Positions 12,152-22,409 of a DNA stretch of 64,000 nt are shown here, one piece after another. The position numbers and the translations under genes were made by a program. The DNA lies in NCBI RefSeq assembly GCF_963675165.1, contig NC_087383.1, positions 6,719,139 through 6,783,138 on the forward strand, given 5' to 3'. Origin of the DNA: Halichondria panicea. Lineage: Eukaryota > Porifera > Demospongiae > Suberitida > Halichondriidae. Each line of letters begins with the position of its first letter. Positions within the stretch are counted from its first letter, which is position 1. The notes under the pieces are model-generated. The model was not told the DNA's origin, made no database searches, and saw only the letters and a list, made by a program, of their open reading frames with translations.

Positions 12152-12260
12152 GGTTCCATCAATGTCCCTGATGGCAAGACTCCTCGCGACACTTAGCCTC
12201 GAGACCACGCCGATTGAAATCGGCAATCATAGTCCAATCATAGATACAGGGATTTGAGTA

Positions 12261-13344
12261 GCCTCGATCCCAGGCCGAGTTTTCGCTTTTATAACGGTTA
12301 GGCGAACAACTGGGCCTGGTACTAGTTGTCTGCGCATGCGTCAGTCGTTCGTCAGATTCTGACGAATGGATATTCTCGTTCACTTTCGTGACATTTATAT
12401 TCGTGTACTATCGTGTACTAGAAGTCAGTTCCCGTTTTATCATTATTGGAATCGATTGGAATGGCTCTTAGCTGAAGCTTCTCTCTTCTCTGAAGCTTAT
12501 TCTGAAGACTGAACAACAAGGGAAGAGGTATAAAGCTTTGTCAAGCTTGTTAAGGTCAGATATTTTTGTGTGGGCCCTATGGCCGGCTGTGCTATCAAGT
12601 CTTGTTCATGTTTGGCAAGAATGTAGGTAGACTATAGTTTCATCATTAATATGGTGGATCAAATGAAGAGTGTGAGCTAGAGAACTTGGTGCTGCCATCA
12701 TCAGCTCGTCGACAATGACACTATAACCGAGAAATTTAATATGTATAGATCTACACGTATTTAAAATGTCTACTTCTCTGTACAGGAGCAATGGCTAATA
12801 TCCAGCTATCCCAACAGTGCTCCTCTTGGCTATACTAACGGACGAGACTGGACAGTTTGAGGTAAGGGTTTAACCGTCTTTGGTTTCTTTTAATATTGTC
12901 CTATACTCACAGACACAGGATTGGAGTATGACCTGCTCATTCGAGCGTTGCTGGGTAGCTCAGAGACATCAAGAGAATCTACGTTTTCTCAAGCAATGAG
13001 TTACGAGTTGGGGCCTAGAATCAGAGAAGTCCAGCAGCCTGCTAAATCTTTTTGAAACGTAATTTGAAGGCATTCAATCATCCTGAAGTTGCCCTGGGTC
13101 ACTGTAATTGTGCTGCAGCACAACTGGCAACTCCCCAGGCCTTTGTGAAGCAGCTCCCTATGTGCATCTTTTGTGTACTCACCCTGTGCATTTTCTGTGT
13201 ACAAATTTCAATTATTGATTTATTAAATATTTTTGCCGACCACAAATATACAATGAAAATTTGACGCATGCGCAGACAACTAGTACCAGGCCCAGTTGTT
13301 CGCCTAACCGTTATAAAAGCGAAAACTCGGCCTGGGATCGAGGC
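12261..13344. mobile_element. TAGCCTCG-ended element, copy 1
   Basis: This 1,084-bp element has about 90-bp inverted ends GCCTCGATCCCAGGCCGAG, flanked by TA on both sides. The TA duplication suggests a Tc1/mariner-type non-autonomous element (inference). It has no transposase, and the 61-codon minus-strand frame at 12606-12791 is not recognised. Related copies or single ends occur at 13358, 34500-35740, 35825, 37790-37850, 45895, 48145, 56510 and 56935. Confidence 0.82.
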
Positions 13345-13346
13345 TA

Positions 13347-14012
13347 GGATTTGAGTAGCCTCGATCCCAGGCCGAGTTTTCGCTTTTATAACGGTTAGGC
13401 GAACAACTGGGCCTGGTACTAGTTGTCTGCGCATGTGTCAGTCGTTCGTCAGATTCTGACCAATGGATATTCTCGTTCACTTTTGTGACATTTATATTCG
13501 TGTACTATCGTGTACTAGAAGTCAGTTCCCGTTTTATCATTATTGGAATCGATTGGAATGGCTCTTAGCTGAAGCTTCTCTCTTCTCTGAAGCTTATTCT
13601 GAAGACTAAACAACAAGGGAAGAGGTATAAAGCTTTATCAAGCTTGTTAAGGTCAGATATTTTTGTGTGGGCCCTATGGCCGGCTATGCTATCAAGTCTT
13701 GTTCATGTTTGGCAAGAATGTAGGTAGACTATAGTTTCATCATTAATATGGTGGATCAAGTGAAGAGTGTGAGCTAGAGAACTTGGTGCTGCCATCATCA
13801 GCTCGTCGACAATGACACTATAACCGAGAAATTTAATATGTATAGATCTACACGTATTTAAAATGTCTACTTCTCTGTACAGGAGCAATGGCTAATATCC
13901 AGCTGTCCCAACAGTGCTCCTCTTGGCTATACTAACGGACGAGACTGGACAGTTTGAGGTAAGGGTTTAACCGTCTTTGGTTTCTTTTAATATTGTCCTA
14001 TACTCACAGACA
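13347..14012. repeat. Partial tandem duplicate of the TAGCCTCG element
   Basis: This segment repeats 12249-12913 almost base for base, including the pre-element bases GGATTTGAG and the 61-codon frame. It stops abruptly after ACTCACAGACACA, without the right inverted end. Including flanking bases points to a tandem duplication of the locus and not a second insertion. Confidence 0.85.
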
Positions 14013-14275
14013 CATTGCCAGCAATTGCCATTGTATTTTGGACACTATTGTTCTAGCATCCTGTCTAAATATTTGTTCTATTTATATGAAAATTCAAATA
14101 TTACTCAATCATTTTAACTACTGCGGAAATAAATGCTACTATAGACTATTGTAGTGCGTGCGCAAGATCTTCGCTGAACTAGCTACGTTCACTGCACTGG
14201 TGCTGGTGAGTAATATTATTGTTTACCTGTTGGTTGAGCTCATGTAGACTTCTGTGGTAGATTCTATCCTGTGGC

Positions 14276-14398
14276 AGATCTCTCTAGTCACTGTTACAGG
14301 CCGGTACAAGTAATAACAAAATACTGAGCATGCAGTACTGCCAGCTCAGTATTTTGTTATTACTTTTACCGGCCTGTAACAGTGACTAGAGAGATCTA
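14276..14398. repeat. Fold-back inverted repeat
   Basis: Two arms of about 52 bp (AGTCACTGTTACAGGCCGGT and its inverse, continuing through AATAACAAAATACTGAGC) face each other across a loop of about 14 bp. An outer CTGTGGTAGA/TCTACCACAG pair extends the pairing to about 14252-14405. It lies just left of the gene cluster starting at 14475. Whether it is a MITE or a boundary of that cluster is unknown. Confidence 0.85.
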
Positions 14399-14474
14399 CC
14401 ACAGTAAATAATTATATAGAACAGTACAGTATAGTAGTCAGTTCTCAGTCATATTCTTCTCAGTCCTGTTCTAG

Positions 14475-14852
14475 TTACAACACTTTTACTAAATTAAATT
14501 TAACTTTCTTTCTTGGCTCTTTGTTGTCCGCTTCTTTTGTGCTTTCTTCTTTTGTTTTTTTGGCTCTAAATCCTAGCAACGTGTAGTCTGGATTTAAAAC
14601 TTCTGACACCTGGACATCGTATGTTTGGCTGAGCCTCACAACTTTCTTTAAATAGTTCTGGGCCTTTTTCTGAGACCCCATCGGAAAATAATGTGTTCCA
14701 GTATCATCTGCTGTTGTAAAATAAAATTGTTTTCCCTCAGTTCCCATCTTTACTAGCGACCCAATAGGAAAGGAGTTCCTGTGGTGCCTGATCTCTCGTA
14801 AGTCGGAGTCGATGTAGTACGGGTACGGGTGGAAGTGGCAGCAATTTCCCAT
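14475..14852 (-). CDS. Small MGNCC protein of unknown function
   Basis: I do not recognise this gene. The chosen start at 14852 gives about 125 residues beginning MGNCCHFHPYPYY. A Gly-2 followed by cysteines is the classic signal for N-myristoylation and palmitoylation, so membrane anchoring is plausible. An upstream in-frame ATG at 15002 would add 50 residues and bury that motif. The middle is mixed alpha/beta in character, and the C-terminus is lysine-rich (ESTKEADNKEPRKKVKFNLV). It ends in TAA at 14475-14477. It is divergent from the chromodomain gene, whose ATG is at 15018, so the two would share a very short promoter region. It is open with no damage. Confidence 0.55.
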   Translation of the reverse strand: MGNCCHFHPYPYYIDSDLREIRHHRNSFPIGSLVKMGTEGKQFYFTTADDTGTHYFPMGSQKKAQNYLKKVVRLSQTYDVQVSEVLNPDYTLLGFRAKKTKEESTKEADNKEPRKKVKFNLVKVL

Positions 14853-15017
14853 CTCAATTCTTTCTCTGTTCTTTTTTGTATAGTAATTTACTGATTCACA
14901 TGACAGTAATAGCATGCAATCAATGGTAGTAAAGTGTGTCAAATGAATAGAGATAAAATCTTTATGGTCACTAATTATTAATCTTCCAGCAGACCTGTTC
15001 ATGCAGATCGACCTGTT

Positions 15018-15842
15018 ATGGACTCGTCAAAGAGGCAACGACCTGAGAAAGGATACTATTCCTACCTCCATAATATAAGCTCGGCTGACATGGACTTATC
15101 TAGCATGCGGGAAGCACGAGATGTGAGAACCACTCTGAGCTGTAAGTCTGATGACAGTCTGCCAGAAGGGGTCTTCCTTGTTGAGAGGATAATTCATCAT
15201 CGACTAACTAAGGTACGTAACATTTTATGATATATAGCCCTATACGATTGATTCTATTTCTAGGGGAAAACGGAGTATTTGGTAAAGTGGGCTGGTTACT
15301 CATTGGAACAGTCTTCATGGGTCGCTAAGGAAGATGTGACTATCTCTACTATCCAGTAAGATTATTAAGTATGGCATGGCAGTGCACTGTGTATTACTAT
15401 AATTATATCTGCACATTTCCCCCCTTTCAGATCATACAATACACCACAAGCACCACATACCGAGCTTATAAGCGACGCAACCAGAAGATTTGTTCTGTCC
15501 ATTCAATGTAGTTTAAATTTAGGTACTGTAAAATCCTGTAATTTAACTATAGATTTCCGGCTAGATGTATTTCGTTACCTATTTAAAGATCGAGGAACCC
15601 AAATGACCCGCGGAAAGCTCCAACTTCAACAAACTGATTTTAACGATGAATATTTTATAGGTAGTTGGTATATTTTGTATGATAGATATGGCAATGGCTG
15701 CACAGTAGATTTTCCTATTGTAGTATGTCCTAGAATTAAGTATGGACCGAAAACATATAGAAATAGCAATGGTGAAATGTTAGAGTCACCTAGACTACTA
15801 TCTGAAATTGTATGTGTAAATCTGGTGAAAAAACGTTGTTGA
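15018..15842 (+). CDS. Chromodomain protein, four exons
   Basis: Exons 15018-15212, 15264-15355, 15431-15522 and 15553-15842 join in phase to give 222 residues with no stop. Residues about 51-95 form a chromodomain: VFLVERIIHHRLTK, EYLVKWAGYS and SSWVAKEDV. The aromatic positions F53, W74 and Y77 and the later W84 fit the HP1/Polycomb fold, which binds methylated lysine on histone H3 tails; which mark is bound cannot be told. The C-terminal 120 residues (RFVLSIQCSLNL, FRLDVFRYLFKDRG, GNGCTVDFPIVVCP) are not a chromoshadow domain that I recognise. It lies between the MGNCC gene (divergent) and a convergent kinase gene, and 1.6 kb upstream of the RAG1-like transposase. Chromodomains are often carried by transposons, so it may be part of that element or a host gene. 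All splice sites are GT/AG. Confidence 0.85.
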
Positions 15843-16130
15843 TCATTGTTAATTGTTAATTGTTAATGCATGCATGGCCCAACCTGAGCAGCCAATACGC
15901 ACTATGTGACTCATAACTAACTGCTTCAGGCCAATTCTCTACCATAATGCTTTTAATGACTCTCAAACAAATGGCTGGGTCAACACGCATCCCGACTTAC
16001 AGCTAACCTTGTCAGCCTTCCATTAGAGAGCACGGATTTGCCTACAATTATACATAGACTATGTCATAGTTAAAGCTAGCACCAGATTTAAACATGAACG
16101 AATGAATGTAAGACATAATTAGTCACATAG
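15843..16130. other. Short gap between convergent genes
   Basis: This is 288 bp between the stop of the chromodomain gene and the stop of the kinase gene, containing a TTGTTAATTG repeat near 15846-15865. No other feature is visible. Confidence 0.4.
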
Positions 16131-17257
16131 TCATTCAACATTAAGAGAAATGGTTTCTAAGCTAGGACGGTCATGAGCATGATAAGAAAGACATTCCTTA
16201 ATTACATGGGCAAGTTCAGTTGACTTAATTACAATGGAGTTCATCTTCTTCATTATTCTACCTAATGAGTATATATCGCTCTGTGTGCTCTGTAAAACAA
16301 GCCCATCGCGGAGGTCTGGAGCTACTTGAGTGTGTTCTTTTATGTAAATAACTTTCTGTTCCTCGGTCAGGCAGTACTTCTTAGCATGCTTTTCTTTACA
16401 TGCCTTTCCAAAATCCACAATACATGGCCGGATACATTCTAACAAAGTAGTCCCTAATACTACGTTGTCTACTTTAAGATCATTGTGAAGAATACTCAGC
16501 TTGTGCATGTATGATAGACCATCACAAATTTGGATCAGTATTTGCATCCATGTCTTAGGGCTTAATTTAATTTCGTTAGTCGAATACAAGGCAGAATATA
16601 ATGAAACTTGTTGCTGCTTCACGCTTACATTAGACATTACTAAAGCTCTCCTGGTGGAACAAATACCAAAACAGTGTGGTATATAAGGGCTGGAATTTAA
16701 TGTAAGTAATATACTGGCTTCATGCCTAATCGATTCGATTGAGGAGTCGGAAGTAAATGTTTTGACACAGACGTCAAAACACTCTTTAAAAATCATACGA
16801 GAGCATGTTCCAAACCGACCATTTCCTATATGAACATCACCACCCCCATCTGCTAAACATTTCTCACTTATCTCTGGAACTACAGTAACTCCTCGCATAA
16901 TATCAGCATTCGTACACATTCTTGGAGTTGCCTTGGGTAGACTGATTGCACTCGTCTTCATGGCTGCTGTTAGTAACTTTAGTGGTCGTTGGTGACTGCA
17001 GGATGTTCCCAGAGTTCCTGTCCGTAATTGCTTAGCTCGATACACGTTGAGTTCCCTGTATGAACAATATTATTTACTGGCTGTTAATCAGCAACTTACA
17101 GTTTATAATCTATTGCCTTCTTCTTCCAATTCTGAACATTTTTCTCGGCACATTCAAGGCTCTTCTTCTCCATACACAGCTGCTTGCCAATTTTGTCAAC
17201 TCTAGCTTTTCGATTGAGCCTCTTGAGCTTGGATCTTGAGAATGTCTGGTCAGCCAT
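16131..17257 (-). CDS. Protein kinase, two exons
   Basis: Exon 1 (17257-17100) encodes a basic, probably coiled-coil N-terminus (MADQTFSRSKLKRLNRKAR) and ends at a GTAAGT donor. Exon 2 (17055-16131) encodes the kinase domain. The total is about 360 residues, in phase and without stops. Visible kinase motifs are the glycine loop IGNGRFGTC, the lysine strand VCVKTF, a C-helix glutamate in RHEASIL, the catalytic loop HNDLKVDNVVL, the metal loop VDFGKA, and APDLRDG in place of APE. HND instead of HRD suggests a non-RD kinase that would not need activation-loop phosphorylation. Substrates are unknown. The gene is head-to-head with the RAG1-like transposase (ATGs at 17257 and 17472), suggesting a shared 215-bp promoter. 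It may be host-derived or element-borne. Confidence 0.85.
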
Positions 17258-17471
17258 TTTGTAATAAGTCTAAGAGAACCAGAGGTCGCAAAATACCCGC
17301 CATAATGCATCTGAGAAGTGTTATCATGCTATTGAATGAGTACTGTGGTTAATTTAGTGGGTGATAACACCGCAGCCTATTCACCCGCCCACTCATATTG
17401 ACATGGCTAATTAATTTTGTTACATAACAGCTCAAGGGACCTTTTGTTCCATTATCCCGGGCCTCCTAGCT
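17258..17471. promoter_or_regulatory. Candidate bidirectional promoter
   Basis: This is 214 bp between the divergent start codons of the kinase and the RAG1-like transposase. No TATA box or known factor site stands out; the call rests only on geometry. Confidence 0.35.
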
Positions 17472-20051
17472 ATGGCAGTAAACAAGCAGTCCAGAAGAGC
17501 AGAGAGCCTGTCCATCACCATCTCAAATTCAGCAAAGAAGTACTCTGACTTCAGCCACACAGAACCACAAGTACAGCCAAACTTCTCTCTCTCTATTCCT
17601 ATCGAGTTGCTGCATCATTGGTACATGAACAAGAAGGCAGAAGAGACATTCATTAGCTTAGTTAATAGCATGGTAACAATAGTTAAACTAGCACAAAGCG
17701 ATCGTCTGGAGAAAAGGCTTGCAGAACAAGCTAGCAAGGTAGCAAGAAGGATACGGGGGCTAAAAGGAAGAAGGAGGTATGCCGTACTTGCTGGAGAATA
17801 CAACCTCTTCGTGCTTGATGGAGAAGCAGAATCGTATTCTGAAATTGAGCAGCAACTATCCACTGAATCTCCACAGCCAACAACAATCCCCGAAACAAGT
17901 AGACCTACCACAGCACACATCAACAAAGGCAAAAAAGTTCACGAGGTATCACCACGACAGGTAAAACGAAAGCTAGCACACTGTAAGAGCTCTGCAGAGC
18001 AAGCGCTTTGGTTTTGTGAATCATTCGGTCTTCAGCCAGAATCTTTAGAGCTACGCAAACAGACAGGATCTCCCATCAAATTCAATTTTTTATCTAGCCC
18101 ATCTCACAAGCCACAACATCAAACGCCAGCTCTTTCACCAAACGATTCTGCGAGGGTACAGCAAGCTCTTTATGTACTTGACAGGTTTGCTGTGAGTGAC
18201 GAAGCTTATCATGAATTGAGCGTCGCATCTGATTTACCACCACTGTACCGAATCAAGGATGCTCGCCTCTCAATTAACAACTCTCTCGACATCCGACATC
18301 TCGAAGGTCCTTATCCTGGTGCTTATAGACCACCGAAAGCTGCAATCCAGGAAGAGCTAGCTAAGATCGTAAGTAAAGAAGAAATTATACATTATTATTA
18401 TGGATTATTATTTTAGGTTCATTCAGGGAAAGCTATCACCCAACCAGTAAAAGTAAAACTCAGTGGTGACGGAGCCAGATTCACAAGATCATCCAATATC
18501 ATACTTCTCTCATTTGCATTTCCAGAAATTCAAGACAATGTTTTATCAGGCATGGGTAAGCTTAACAATAAAAATATTAAACGAGAAAGTGGTGAAAATA
18601 TTTTTATATTGACATTCATACAGGCAATCATACTTTTGCTGGCCTAAAAGCCGAAGAGTCGTATGAAACAATTAGTTCAGGACTATCTGAGGTATTGAAG
18701 GAGTTGAACGACATCATTTCACACCCACTACTCACTGTTGATGAAACAGAGTACCGCCTTGAGTTTTTCCTGGGTAGTGATTACAAGGTGAGAATGTATA
18801 GTTAATTACTGACTATAAAAATTGCATTATTAGTTTCTTTTACTGAGTATGGGCCTCAACAAAGCAACCTCTATGTACGCTTGTGTCTGGTGTACCATCA
18901 AGAAGGATGAAAGGTATATCTATAATTATTATATGCTTAAACCTAGCTTCCCCATTTGCCGCTATAGGTGGGATATGTCAAAGGATAGGGCTGACTACAC
19001 CGTAACAAATGCAAGAACATTGAGTTCCCTACAAGCAAAAGGCGCACTTCCCAGCAGTAAACCAGCAAGTGTACGACTAGGATCAATTACAACACCACTA
19101 CTGAACATAGAGCCAGACCATATAATACCCGATGAGCTACACCTACTCCTACGTATAGCTGACGTTTTAACAAGAAATCTCATTCTAGAGATAGTGGCAT
19201 CTGCTAAACAAGACAGACAAGGAAACGCACATATACTCACTCACCTACAAACACTACAGACGATCGTTAAAGACTGTGGTATCACGTTCAGGGTATGGGA
19301 AGCAAGGGGTCCAGATGGCAAAGCTTCTGGACATTACGAATGGACATCACTGCAGGGGAACGACACCAAGAAGTTTCTGGAACGTCTCCCAGTGAGGTTT
19401 GCTGACCTACTGAAGGAAGAAATTCAAGCTAAAATGGCCCAACTTTGGACAGTGAGTACTAATTAAATTTCCCTTCGCATTTTACAAACATAATTATTTA
19501 TATGGTCTGGCTCTATAGGAATTTCTCTCTTTGTATAAGATGGTTTCTAGCTGGACTCCACCTCCCAGTGAAGTGGTTGAGCAAAAGGTATAGTGTTAGT
19601 TTACTAGTAGGGAGAACCATTGTATCTAATTTACTATAATCTATCATGATAGGCGAAAGACTGGATAAGGCTTTTCTTGAGCTTGAAGCACAAGTGTCAA
19701 GGGTTTCAGGAAAAGAATATTACGCCCTATATGCACACACTGGTCTTTCACTTCCCTTACTTTATTTCAAAATACGGAAATGTCAAGATGTTTAGTGGAC
19801 AAGGTGAGTTCGAGTGTAAAGAGATAACATTTTAATCACCTTTTTCTCTAGGGGTGGAGAAAAATAATGATGACGCCAAGAGACACTACTTCTCCAGTAA
19901 TCTGCATGACCCAGTGGGGGAGGTTCTGAAAGCTGAAGCGAGAATAGACGAGACATCACAATTTAAGCGAAAGAAACGAAAGTACATACGAAAAACTCCA
20001 TTAGATTTAGTAGACATGAACAAACAGCCACGACTTGACTCTGAATCATGA
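17472..20051 (+). CDS. RAG1/Transib-like DDE transposase, eight exons, intact
   Basis: Exons 17472-18368, 18417-18555, 18624-18787, 18834-18913, 18968-19451, 19519-19587, 19653-19803 and 19852-20051 join in phase to about 727 residues with no stop. The C-terminal half carries the RNase-H-fold transposase signature of RAG1 and Transib. D317 lies in KLSGDGARF, D398 in FFLGSDYK, C417-x2-C420 in YACVWC, D-x-LH in IPDELHLLL, H639-x4-H644 in MHTLVFHFP, and E664 in QGVEKNND. The spacings D398 to C417 (19) and H644 to E664 (20) equal those of RAG1 D708-C727 and H942-E962 as I recall them. AEESYETISSGLSEVL also resembles RAG1 near ADESDHETLTAIL. The 300-residue N-terminus has no RING finger and is unrecognised. 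I could not find CACWRTG-type ends or a 5-bp duplication around the gene, so it may be an element with unlocated ends or a host gene. Confidence 0.8.
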
Positions 20052-22409
20052 TTAATTCTACCCAACATAATAATATAGTATACTATATATCCTGATAGAT
20101 TGTACACATTTACTATCTTCAAGTAAATGACTGCTAGCCTATACTTACTTGCAGCCATATACACTCACTTTACATTGCTGGTACATTGCGATTAATGGGG
20201 AATTCCCCAAATTAGTGGCTCTACGCAGCTCTTGGGTATGTGTAGATAATGCGATACGTCATTGATAATTGTGGATTTTTTGACAAAACTGGACACATTT
20301 TGGAACCGCTTAGTCCACTTTATATCGAGCAGCAGCCGCTTTAAGCAGCAGAGTAGGCCGTATATTTTTGCTGGCAATCGGCAAAAATGAAAATATATGT
20401 GTAAGAATGCCGCAAATCAAACACAAAAATACAAAATAATCAAATTTTACAATACAATACACGAGACAAGCGCTGAAACATTGATCAACAAAAGCAGTTA
20501 GGGAACTTATACAAGCTGGCTGGCTAGCTTCTTGTGGGATTCCAAGGTTAGCTAAGGTGTATTTCTTCTTCTTTGTATCGGCAAATCAACTGAAAGTAGC
20601 TCCCTACAAGGGAAAAAGGGAAGCATAGCCTTTGGTCTCATAAGAACACATATAAAATCATACCGTAATATACAGAAAATTACTAACTGATTTACTGACA
20701 TATTTTAATTGGTGTCCAGTCATTGCTGGCAATGACACAGTTTGTATGACAGACTAATAGTAGTAGCTCACGATTGGGCTCAAGGATAGCTTTAGCTGTG
20801 GTGCAAAGGCTTGCATATGCAGAGCAAAGCCTCCTATAGGTCGATTTTTCCCCAAAATAAACAGGCCTAAAGGATTTATTGGACAAAAATTGGTTTGTAA
20901 TGAGCCATAATTACGTAACTGTTCACGTGACAAGTACTTCCGCTCTCGACATTACAGTTGCAAGAACTCCTCAAATCCCTGTAGTGTAGAAAGAGGGATT
21001 GGAAACGGATCCAGGCTGCGCAGGAAGTTAATTCACTGCACCGGAAGCTAATAATAGTTTCTTCACATCACCTTGGGATATATGGGATGGCAGCACAGAT
21101 TACAGAGCAGACAGACAGCATATGAGACTTGAGAAGAGCTAGAGCTAAAGAGCAGTGATGAGGTATAAGTCCAAAATACCAGTCTACATTAATTTGTGAA
21201 GACGAAGGATTCAAGATATTTAGCAGTGCCAGCATCATGTAATTGCACTGACTTTAGCAACAAAGTTGTAGCTATGAATGTATGATTTACGAGGGAAATA
21301 CAATTTAATAGCTTGATCACTTTAGCGTATTGTGTATTCACACTCTTTAGTATTATAGTTCATTCGATTCATAATTATAATTATGGTTGTTTGATCACAC
21401 GTAAAAAAATAATTATGCATCAAATAGAAATGTAGTTAAACGCTTCGAGAGGGTTCTAGCCGATTCGCTCACTCAGAAAGGCACTTGCGCAAGGGAGGAT
21501 GAACAGGTCCCCTACCGCATGTCAATGAATGATTTGACTGCAAAGGGACGAGGGGAGTTTTAGGTTTACAATACACATTGTATATATACGTACCTGACTG
21601 TAAACTTCAGTCCTTGTGGCATCACTACAGCATCTTAAGCTCCTTACGGCTAGAAACAGATTTTTCCCCCTATCCCAGTCGTCCAGGTATTCATTATCCA
21701 ACCCTATAGTATAATTATATCACCCATGGGTAAGTAAACAAGACGGTAGTAACATAATAACGTATGACCAGTATATACATGTACGTACGTTAATTTGTAA
21801 ATATACATGTAGACTAAACATCACAGCTACTGCCAAAATAAGGCTTTGTTCAGTCAAATAAGGGTGCCCAATATACAGTACTCATATAAAAGCATAGGAA
21901 TACCCAAGACAAATTATAAGCCAAAGAGAGGTACGGAAAAGTGAACATAAATTCCGGTAAATTTTGCCATTTTATCACATGTTGTGAACTTTCCTTAGTA
22001 CTTAGCAGTCAACACCATTCCATACCTCACCTAATTCTCTATTCAACAAAGTCAAAATGGTAAATATTGCTTGTATTAACAACGAAGATATAGGTACAGA
22101 AAGTCATTCCCAGTTGATATAATATAATATTATAATATATAATATAGGCCTGGAAATCCAGTAACATAAAGAAATGATGGCGTTATGACGTTTGAATGTT
22201 ATAACATGACATACGTGACCTTATTGGAGTTATAGCATGACGTACGTGACCTTATAACGTGGCGTACGTAACCTTATAACGTGGCGTATGTAGTGTAGCC
22301 AAGGGAGACTTTGAACCTTGACCTTGCCTTCCTTATCACCTTGCCTTTTCATATGCGCATGCGCATAAGCAACCTTGCATGCCTTCAATAACAAGCTAGC
22401 TAGCTAGAG
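20052..22409. other. No gene; dispersed repeats
   Basis: About 20560-20990 is a dispersed repeat that recurs inverted at about 47700-48060, and in part at 48250-48325 (shared string GTGACAAGTACTTCCGCTCT). A MULE-like end (GGGATTGGAAACG) follows near 20997. Near 22187-22290 a short motif around GACGTACGTGACCTTATAACGTGG is repeated about four times, possibly subterminal repeats of the broken transposon whose coding exon begins at 22410. Confidence 0.55.

Follow-up and report, generated by a model that had tools for sequence, protein, structure and literature searches.

Our analysis of a 64,000-nucleotide stretch of the genome of the sponge Halichondria panicea (contig NC_087383.1, positions 6,719,139 to 6,783,138; hereafter, the window) concerns a spliced gene with a RAG1-type catalytic core and the mobile element that surrounds it. 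We consider it probable that the gene product is the transposase of an autonomous, very recently active cut-and-paste transposon, and that this RAG1-type enzyme inserts the element with a zero-base stagger, subject to one-base variation. The element is a transposon with a RAG1 fold that has neither the 5-bp target duplications nor the terminal sequence by which Transib and RAG-like elements are defined.

The eight exons of the transposase gene (Table 1) are separated by GT..AG introns of 46–68 nt, and the spliced product is a single frame of 727 codons plus stop, bearing out the joined frame of about 727 codons that a first-pass annotation of the same DNA had read from eight exons. The catalytic triad (D317, D398, and E664) and the presumed zinc ligands (C417, C420, H639, and H644) were found in the spliced frame where that annotation had placed them. 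Its spacings of 81 residues between the two Asp, 19 from Asp to Cys, and 20 from the second His to Glu were reproduced on re-measuring; the remaining distances are 3 (C–C), 219 (C–H), and 5 (H–H). The D–C, C–C, H–H, and H–E values equal those of RAG1 in the residue numbering that we take to apply. The spliced protein is 36.6% identical over 697 residues to P0010, a homologue from Nematostella, with all seven key positions paired; because the joined protein pairs with P0010 along this whole length, sequence comparison supports the exon joins. Residues 1–290 contain two Cys (homologues have 0–11 ahead of the first Asp). The Pfam matches listed, which in one scan covered 25 of 155 families, included neither a zinc finger nor a RING. 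A 19-nt stretch of exon 5 (19107–19125) is perfectly matched in inverted orientation at the 3' end of intron 5 (19498–19516); a hairpin between the two was rejected as a feature, its RNA fold being no more stable than shuffles (z -1.07).

A protein search with transposase residues 290–690 (E<=0.001) found 173 homologues, 120 of them listed. Among these listed matches, the relatives are 34–44% identical to the query, and those with named sources come from Nematostella (several), Stylophora, Dendronephthya, Saccoglossus, Mercenaria, Tubulanus, Ephydatia, and Dysidea; descriptive names, where given, read uncharacterised or hypothetical, and many entries are nameless. In an alignment of 46 of the 120, the two Asp, the two Cys, and the two His are kept throughout and the Glu in 45; the D–C, C–C, H–H, and H–E distances are constant in all 46, and the D–D distance is 81 in 31. 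Conservation of these residues and spacings thus puts the pattern far beyond chance. No relatives were found in prokaryotic genome contigs or viral contigs. One family member, P0104, is filed under a bacterial metagenome-assembled genome, Candidatus Thiodiazotropha taylori, and is probably animal DNA within a bacterial assembly.

Fold comparison was carried out on a model of P0010. As the first-pass annotation had proposed, the prediction was superposed on the RAG1 core, which it matches over 444 residues; RAG1 and Transib are its nearest folds among the structures compared, with HzTransib scoring below RAG1. The predicted fold combines an RNase H core carrying the DDE residues with a split zinc site, C-x2-C and H-x4-H, as in RAG1-type enzymes. 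It is this predicted core, together with the four spacings given above, that the enzyme shares with RAG1 and the RAG-like (RAGL) elements ProtoRAG and TransibSU. The first Asp falls inside the fold-match span only, outside the profile alignment. Since the fold alignment begins near residue 459 of RAG1, the nonamer-binding domain of RAG1 is unmatched; the N-terminal part of P0010 contains a long predicted helix (126–174).

Is the gene a mobile element or a host gene? The first-pass annotation had left both possibilities standing and had called for a search for paralogues. In the genome (131 Mb, 39 contigs), the transposase gene has 19 matches at 99–100% identity, 18 of them full length, on 8 contigs, and most end at common element boundaries. 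These copies establish the mobile element and contradict a domesticated, single-copy relative of RAG1, a reading to which we give next to no weight despite the intact spliced frame that would suit it. The terminal inverted repeats (TIRs) are perfect over 13 bp, with CATTGCC at both ends and CA..TG termini, and the full TIR is present at each end of the 16 copies having both ends. The 21-base left end occurs 17 times exactly and once with two mismatches. Nine of the 18 other copies (L011–L013 and L015–L020) differ from the window copy, L010, by 1–3 substitutions over about 6.7 kb, and the rest by more; from these nine we conclude that the element moved very recently. Of the 19 copies, 15 retain an intact transposase. 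Two copies, L009 and L014, must contain about 10–12 kb of other DNA, given the positions of their ends. Further decayed relatives lie on contigs C3 and C13. The 13-bp TIR occurs 43 times in the genome (21 for a reversed control), with 35 occurrences at ends of known copies or of the C3 relative; because only the other eight lie elsewhere, short non-autonomous copies are few if any. At C4:1040129 there is a divergent left-type end with an identical 13-bp TIR and different subterminal DNA, possibly another subfamily. A literature search found no paper on the element, although one may exist.

What does insertion leave behind? Boundaries were compared in the 16 two-ended copies, and for 14 of these (all but L023 and L024) the genome was searched with the two flanks joined. 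Matches of two or more bases occur only at L010 (3 bp) and L024; one-base identities, at 5 of the 16, are near chance; and a 5-bp repeat is found in a single end pair, within a GT repeat. Eight copies have readable paralogous empty sites. Six are clean joins, in which the target is neither duplicated nor lost, one has an extra base and one lacks a base, and none shows a duplication of 2–5 bp. The clean sites comprise L013 (seven empty sites, 98.3–99.7% alike, gapless), L017 (one, 99.6%, gapless), L016 (exact junction at 10 of 10 matched loci), L022 (one, exact junction), L015 (297 of 297 bases, 100%), and L021 (299 versus 299 bases at 98%, judged by length, the letters not having been seen); one-base length differences at L016 and L022 fall outside the 34–35 bases read at the junction. 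A purine occupies position -4 in 17 of 17 left flanks (12 G and 5 A), the right side shows nothing matching, and the targets otherwise have no common core. The first-pass annotation's assignment to the RAG1/Transib type therefore holds for the modelled fold and core and fails for the insertion products and ends: in place of the CACWRTG-like ends with 5-bp duplications that it had proposed to search for, there are CATTGCC ends, with a 5-bp repeat at none of the eight readable sites.

Insertion products and enzyme make-up are observations; for the chemistry, we draw on the predicted fold and the established chemistry of RAG and Transib to propose the following model. A transposase dimer would pair both element ends and cleave the DNA next to the terminal C of CATTGCC, nicking and hairpin formation, as with RAG and Transib, being the probable route. 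Both 3' ends would then be joined to target positions facing each other across the duplex rather than 5 bp apart; with a 0-bp stagger there would be no gap to copy and hence no duplication. The +1 and -1 junctions would be small variations of this joining, and the purine at -4 would be explained if the half of the complex at the left end touches the target there.

Several observations weigh against this reading. The structure modelled is that of the Nematostella homologue, not of the window transposase. The extra base at L018 is measured against eight paralogues only 90–93% alike, and at L020 the junction is one A short, its flanks reading GGA+GTAG versus GGAAGTAG in most of the 100 repeat loci listed (136 were matched, and each of the 100 exceeds the join by one base). 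Such one-base variation is also what end joining would give. L019 has a single spanning match, 91% identical and 7 bases longer over 139; L009, L011, L012, and L014 have no match among the 40 listed, all of the places being filled by the L020 repeat; and L024 sits in the GT repeat. The site of the window copy itself is not clean. Its right flank begins ACACAGTTTG, whereas three paralogues of its left flank (at L017, at L020, and at window positions 12250–12915) run on as CAGGAYTGG, and allowing for a 3-bp ACA repeat would bring just 6 bases into agreement. Because these paralogues do not continue into the right flank, the site must be rearranged or lie at the edge of an array. Finally, the divergent C4:1040129 end, excluded from the 17, has T at -4. 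A tandemly duplicated segment with a unit of about 1.1 kb (12250–14012) ends at the window element, and similar segments lie beside L017 and L020.

The main mechanistic rival to zero-stagger strand transfer is ligation of blunt ends into a break, host end joining uniting a blunt excised element with a blunt target break so that neither strand transfer nor stagger is involved. RAG signal ends undergo comparable end donation into breaks. This route accounts for the absent duplication and for the one-base variation, but end joining usually trims more than is seen here, where six of eight junctions are exact and the TIRs of the 16 two-ended copies are full, and the purine at -4 suggests that an enzyme chooses the site; on balance, we regard it as unlikely. 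A conservative, integrase-like route, such as recombination of an excised circle into the target, would be equally free of duplications. It fits the clean sites and the one-sided target preference, yet it appears less probable still: the DDE enzyme is the only recombinase recognised by Pfam among the element's four genes, and the targets offer no common core besides the -4 purine.

Where does a transposon of this kind belong? RAGL and Transib elements are described as making 5-bp duplications and having CAC ends, and Transib as a single-gene element (PMC7204232). That we are dealing with an ordinary member of this group, its duplications lost or overlooked, is very improbable even though the fold lies nearest to RAG1 and Transib, since, of the 16 end pairs, 15 lack a 5-bp repeat and the other lies in the GT repeat, none of the eight readable empty sites implies one, and the ends do not begin with CAC. 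Like RAGL elements, this transposon has TIRs and an accessory gene whose product bears a chromatin-reading domain, here a chromodomain; unlike them, it has no recognised RAG2-like gene (kelch repeats and PHD; assessed by Pfam only), and it differs from HzTransib in carrying four genes. Spy elements are likewise DDE cut-and-paste elements without target-site duplication; as described, they belong to another superfamily, PHIS, and target AAATTT (PMC4482050), which the flanks here do not show.

Membership in a catalogued RAG1-related lineage (Chapaev, Chapaev3, EnSpm, Mirage, or another of the CMCT clade), with the missing duplication as variation within the group, is a serious possibility, although we judge its chances to be below even. 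The clade (Chapaev/EnSpm/Mirage/Plavaka/ESTA/Lanisha), which we compared by description only, is characterized by C(2)C and H(3-4)H motifs, mostly CA..TG ends, and duplications quoted as 2–5 bp (PMC12730594). The element has the CA..TG ends and, between the second Asp and the Glu, C-x2-C and H-x4-H; it differs in its 0-bp duplication. Kapitonov and Koonin place Chapaev and Chapaev3 within a wide Transib superfamily, and Chapaev has been described in the lancelet and the starlet sea anemone (PMC4411706), the latter belonging to Nematostella, the source of several transposase relatives. The same account gives Chapaev and Chapaev3 a zinc-finger Chapa domain, with which the two N-terminal Cys of the transposase and the listed Pfam matches may be hard to reconcile. 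At somewhat less than even odds, the family may instead be a separate RAG1-fold lineage, with relatives among cnidarians and sponges and in a hemichordate, a nemertean, and a mollusc, whose members would integrate bluntly with zero stagger and which in this genome carries a kinase and a chromodomain protein.

In addition to the transposase, the element carries three genes (Table 1). The kinase gene, head to head with that of the transposase, encodes a protein matching PF00069 (E 8.1e-22) with HNDLKVDN and DFG motifs; its 40 homologues are nameless except for one labelled serine/threonine kinase. The chromodomain protein matches PF00385 (E 2e-12) and drew no homologue (E<=0.01) when proteins were searched, and the fourth open reading frame (ORF) has no Pfam match. 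These genes are intact in 10, 15, and 12 of the 19 copies, respectively, counts that are unreliable for L009 and L014, whose left parts fall outside the DNA retrieved. Accessory roles are probable for the kinase and chromodomain proteins: the kinase might act on the transposase or host factors, and the chromodomain might read chromatin, loosely like the PHD finger of RAG2.

Subterminally, the word TGGACAC lies 13 nt inside the left TIR and 3 nt inside the right one, at 16 left-type and 16 right-type ends of copies that are not independent. Its shuffle p is 0.01 within 40 nt, 0.046 within 50 nt, and 0.12 within 60 nt, and over 100 nt a different word exceeds it in length. The ends of AanRAGL, an Aureococcus RAG-like transposon that makes 5-bp duplications, are reported to combine 13-bp and 10-bp elements separated by 4 or 13 bp (PMC9435367), a likeness to the 13-bp TIR and the 3- and 13-nt spacers here that is statistically weak; the spacer is 6 nt in the decayed C3 relative, and the motif is absent from C4:1040129. 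A bipartite end resembling the 12/23 arrangement is thus weakly suggested. Within the element, a spacerless, near-perfect 152-bp palindrome (14261–14412; two 76-nt arms, 91% complementary) was seen in the 16 copies for which this part of the sequence was retrieved.

Table 1. Features of the transposon in the window.
Feature	Position	Strand	Details and basis
Whole transposon	14013..20734	+	6,722 bp; homology limits among copies, paralogous empty sites at other copies
Left TIR	14013..14025	+	CATTGCCAGCAAT, 13 bp; copy comparison, end searches
Right TIR	20722..20734	-	ATTGCTGGCAATG on + strand, 13 bp; copy comparison
Transposase gene, RAG1-type DDE core	17472..20051	+	727 aa; 8 exons: 17472-18368, 18417-18555, 18624-18787, 18834-18913, 18968-19451, 19519-19587, 19653-19803, 19852-20051; splicing, alignment, fold model
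Protein kinase gene	16131..17257	-	360 aa; 2 exons: 17257-17100, 17055-16131
Chromodomain protein gene	15018..15842	+	232 aa; 3 exons: 15018-15212, 15264-15355, 15431-15842
ORF	14475..15002	-	175 aa; start codon uncertain
TGGACAC, possible second binding element (weak)	14039..14045	+	
TGGACAC, possible second binding element (weak)	20712..20718	-	

Transposition with a 5-bp stagger is typified by RAG and Transib, and the wider RAG1-related clade is described with 2–5 bp (PMC12730594). If a separate zero-stagger lineage does exist, the RAG1-type pair of active sites would not be tied to the 5-bp stagger, and a structural relative that inserts cleanly would allow the geometry of strand transfer to be compared inside one fold. 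Because 15 copies keep the transposase intact, the element is directly testable. Clean insertion could also serve gene delivery, and the large family to which the enzyme belongs (173 homologues in one search), uncharacterised or hypothetical where named, may bear on the origin of RAG1.
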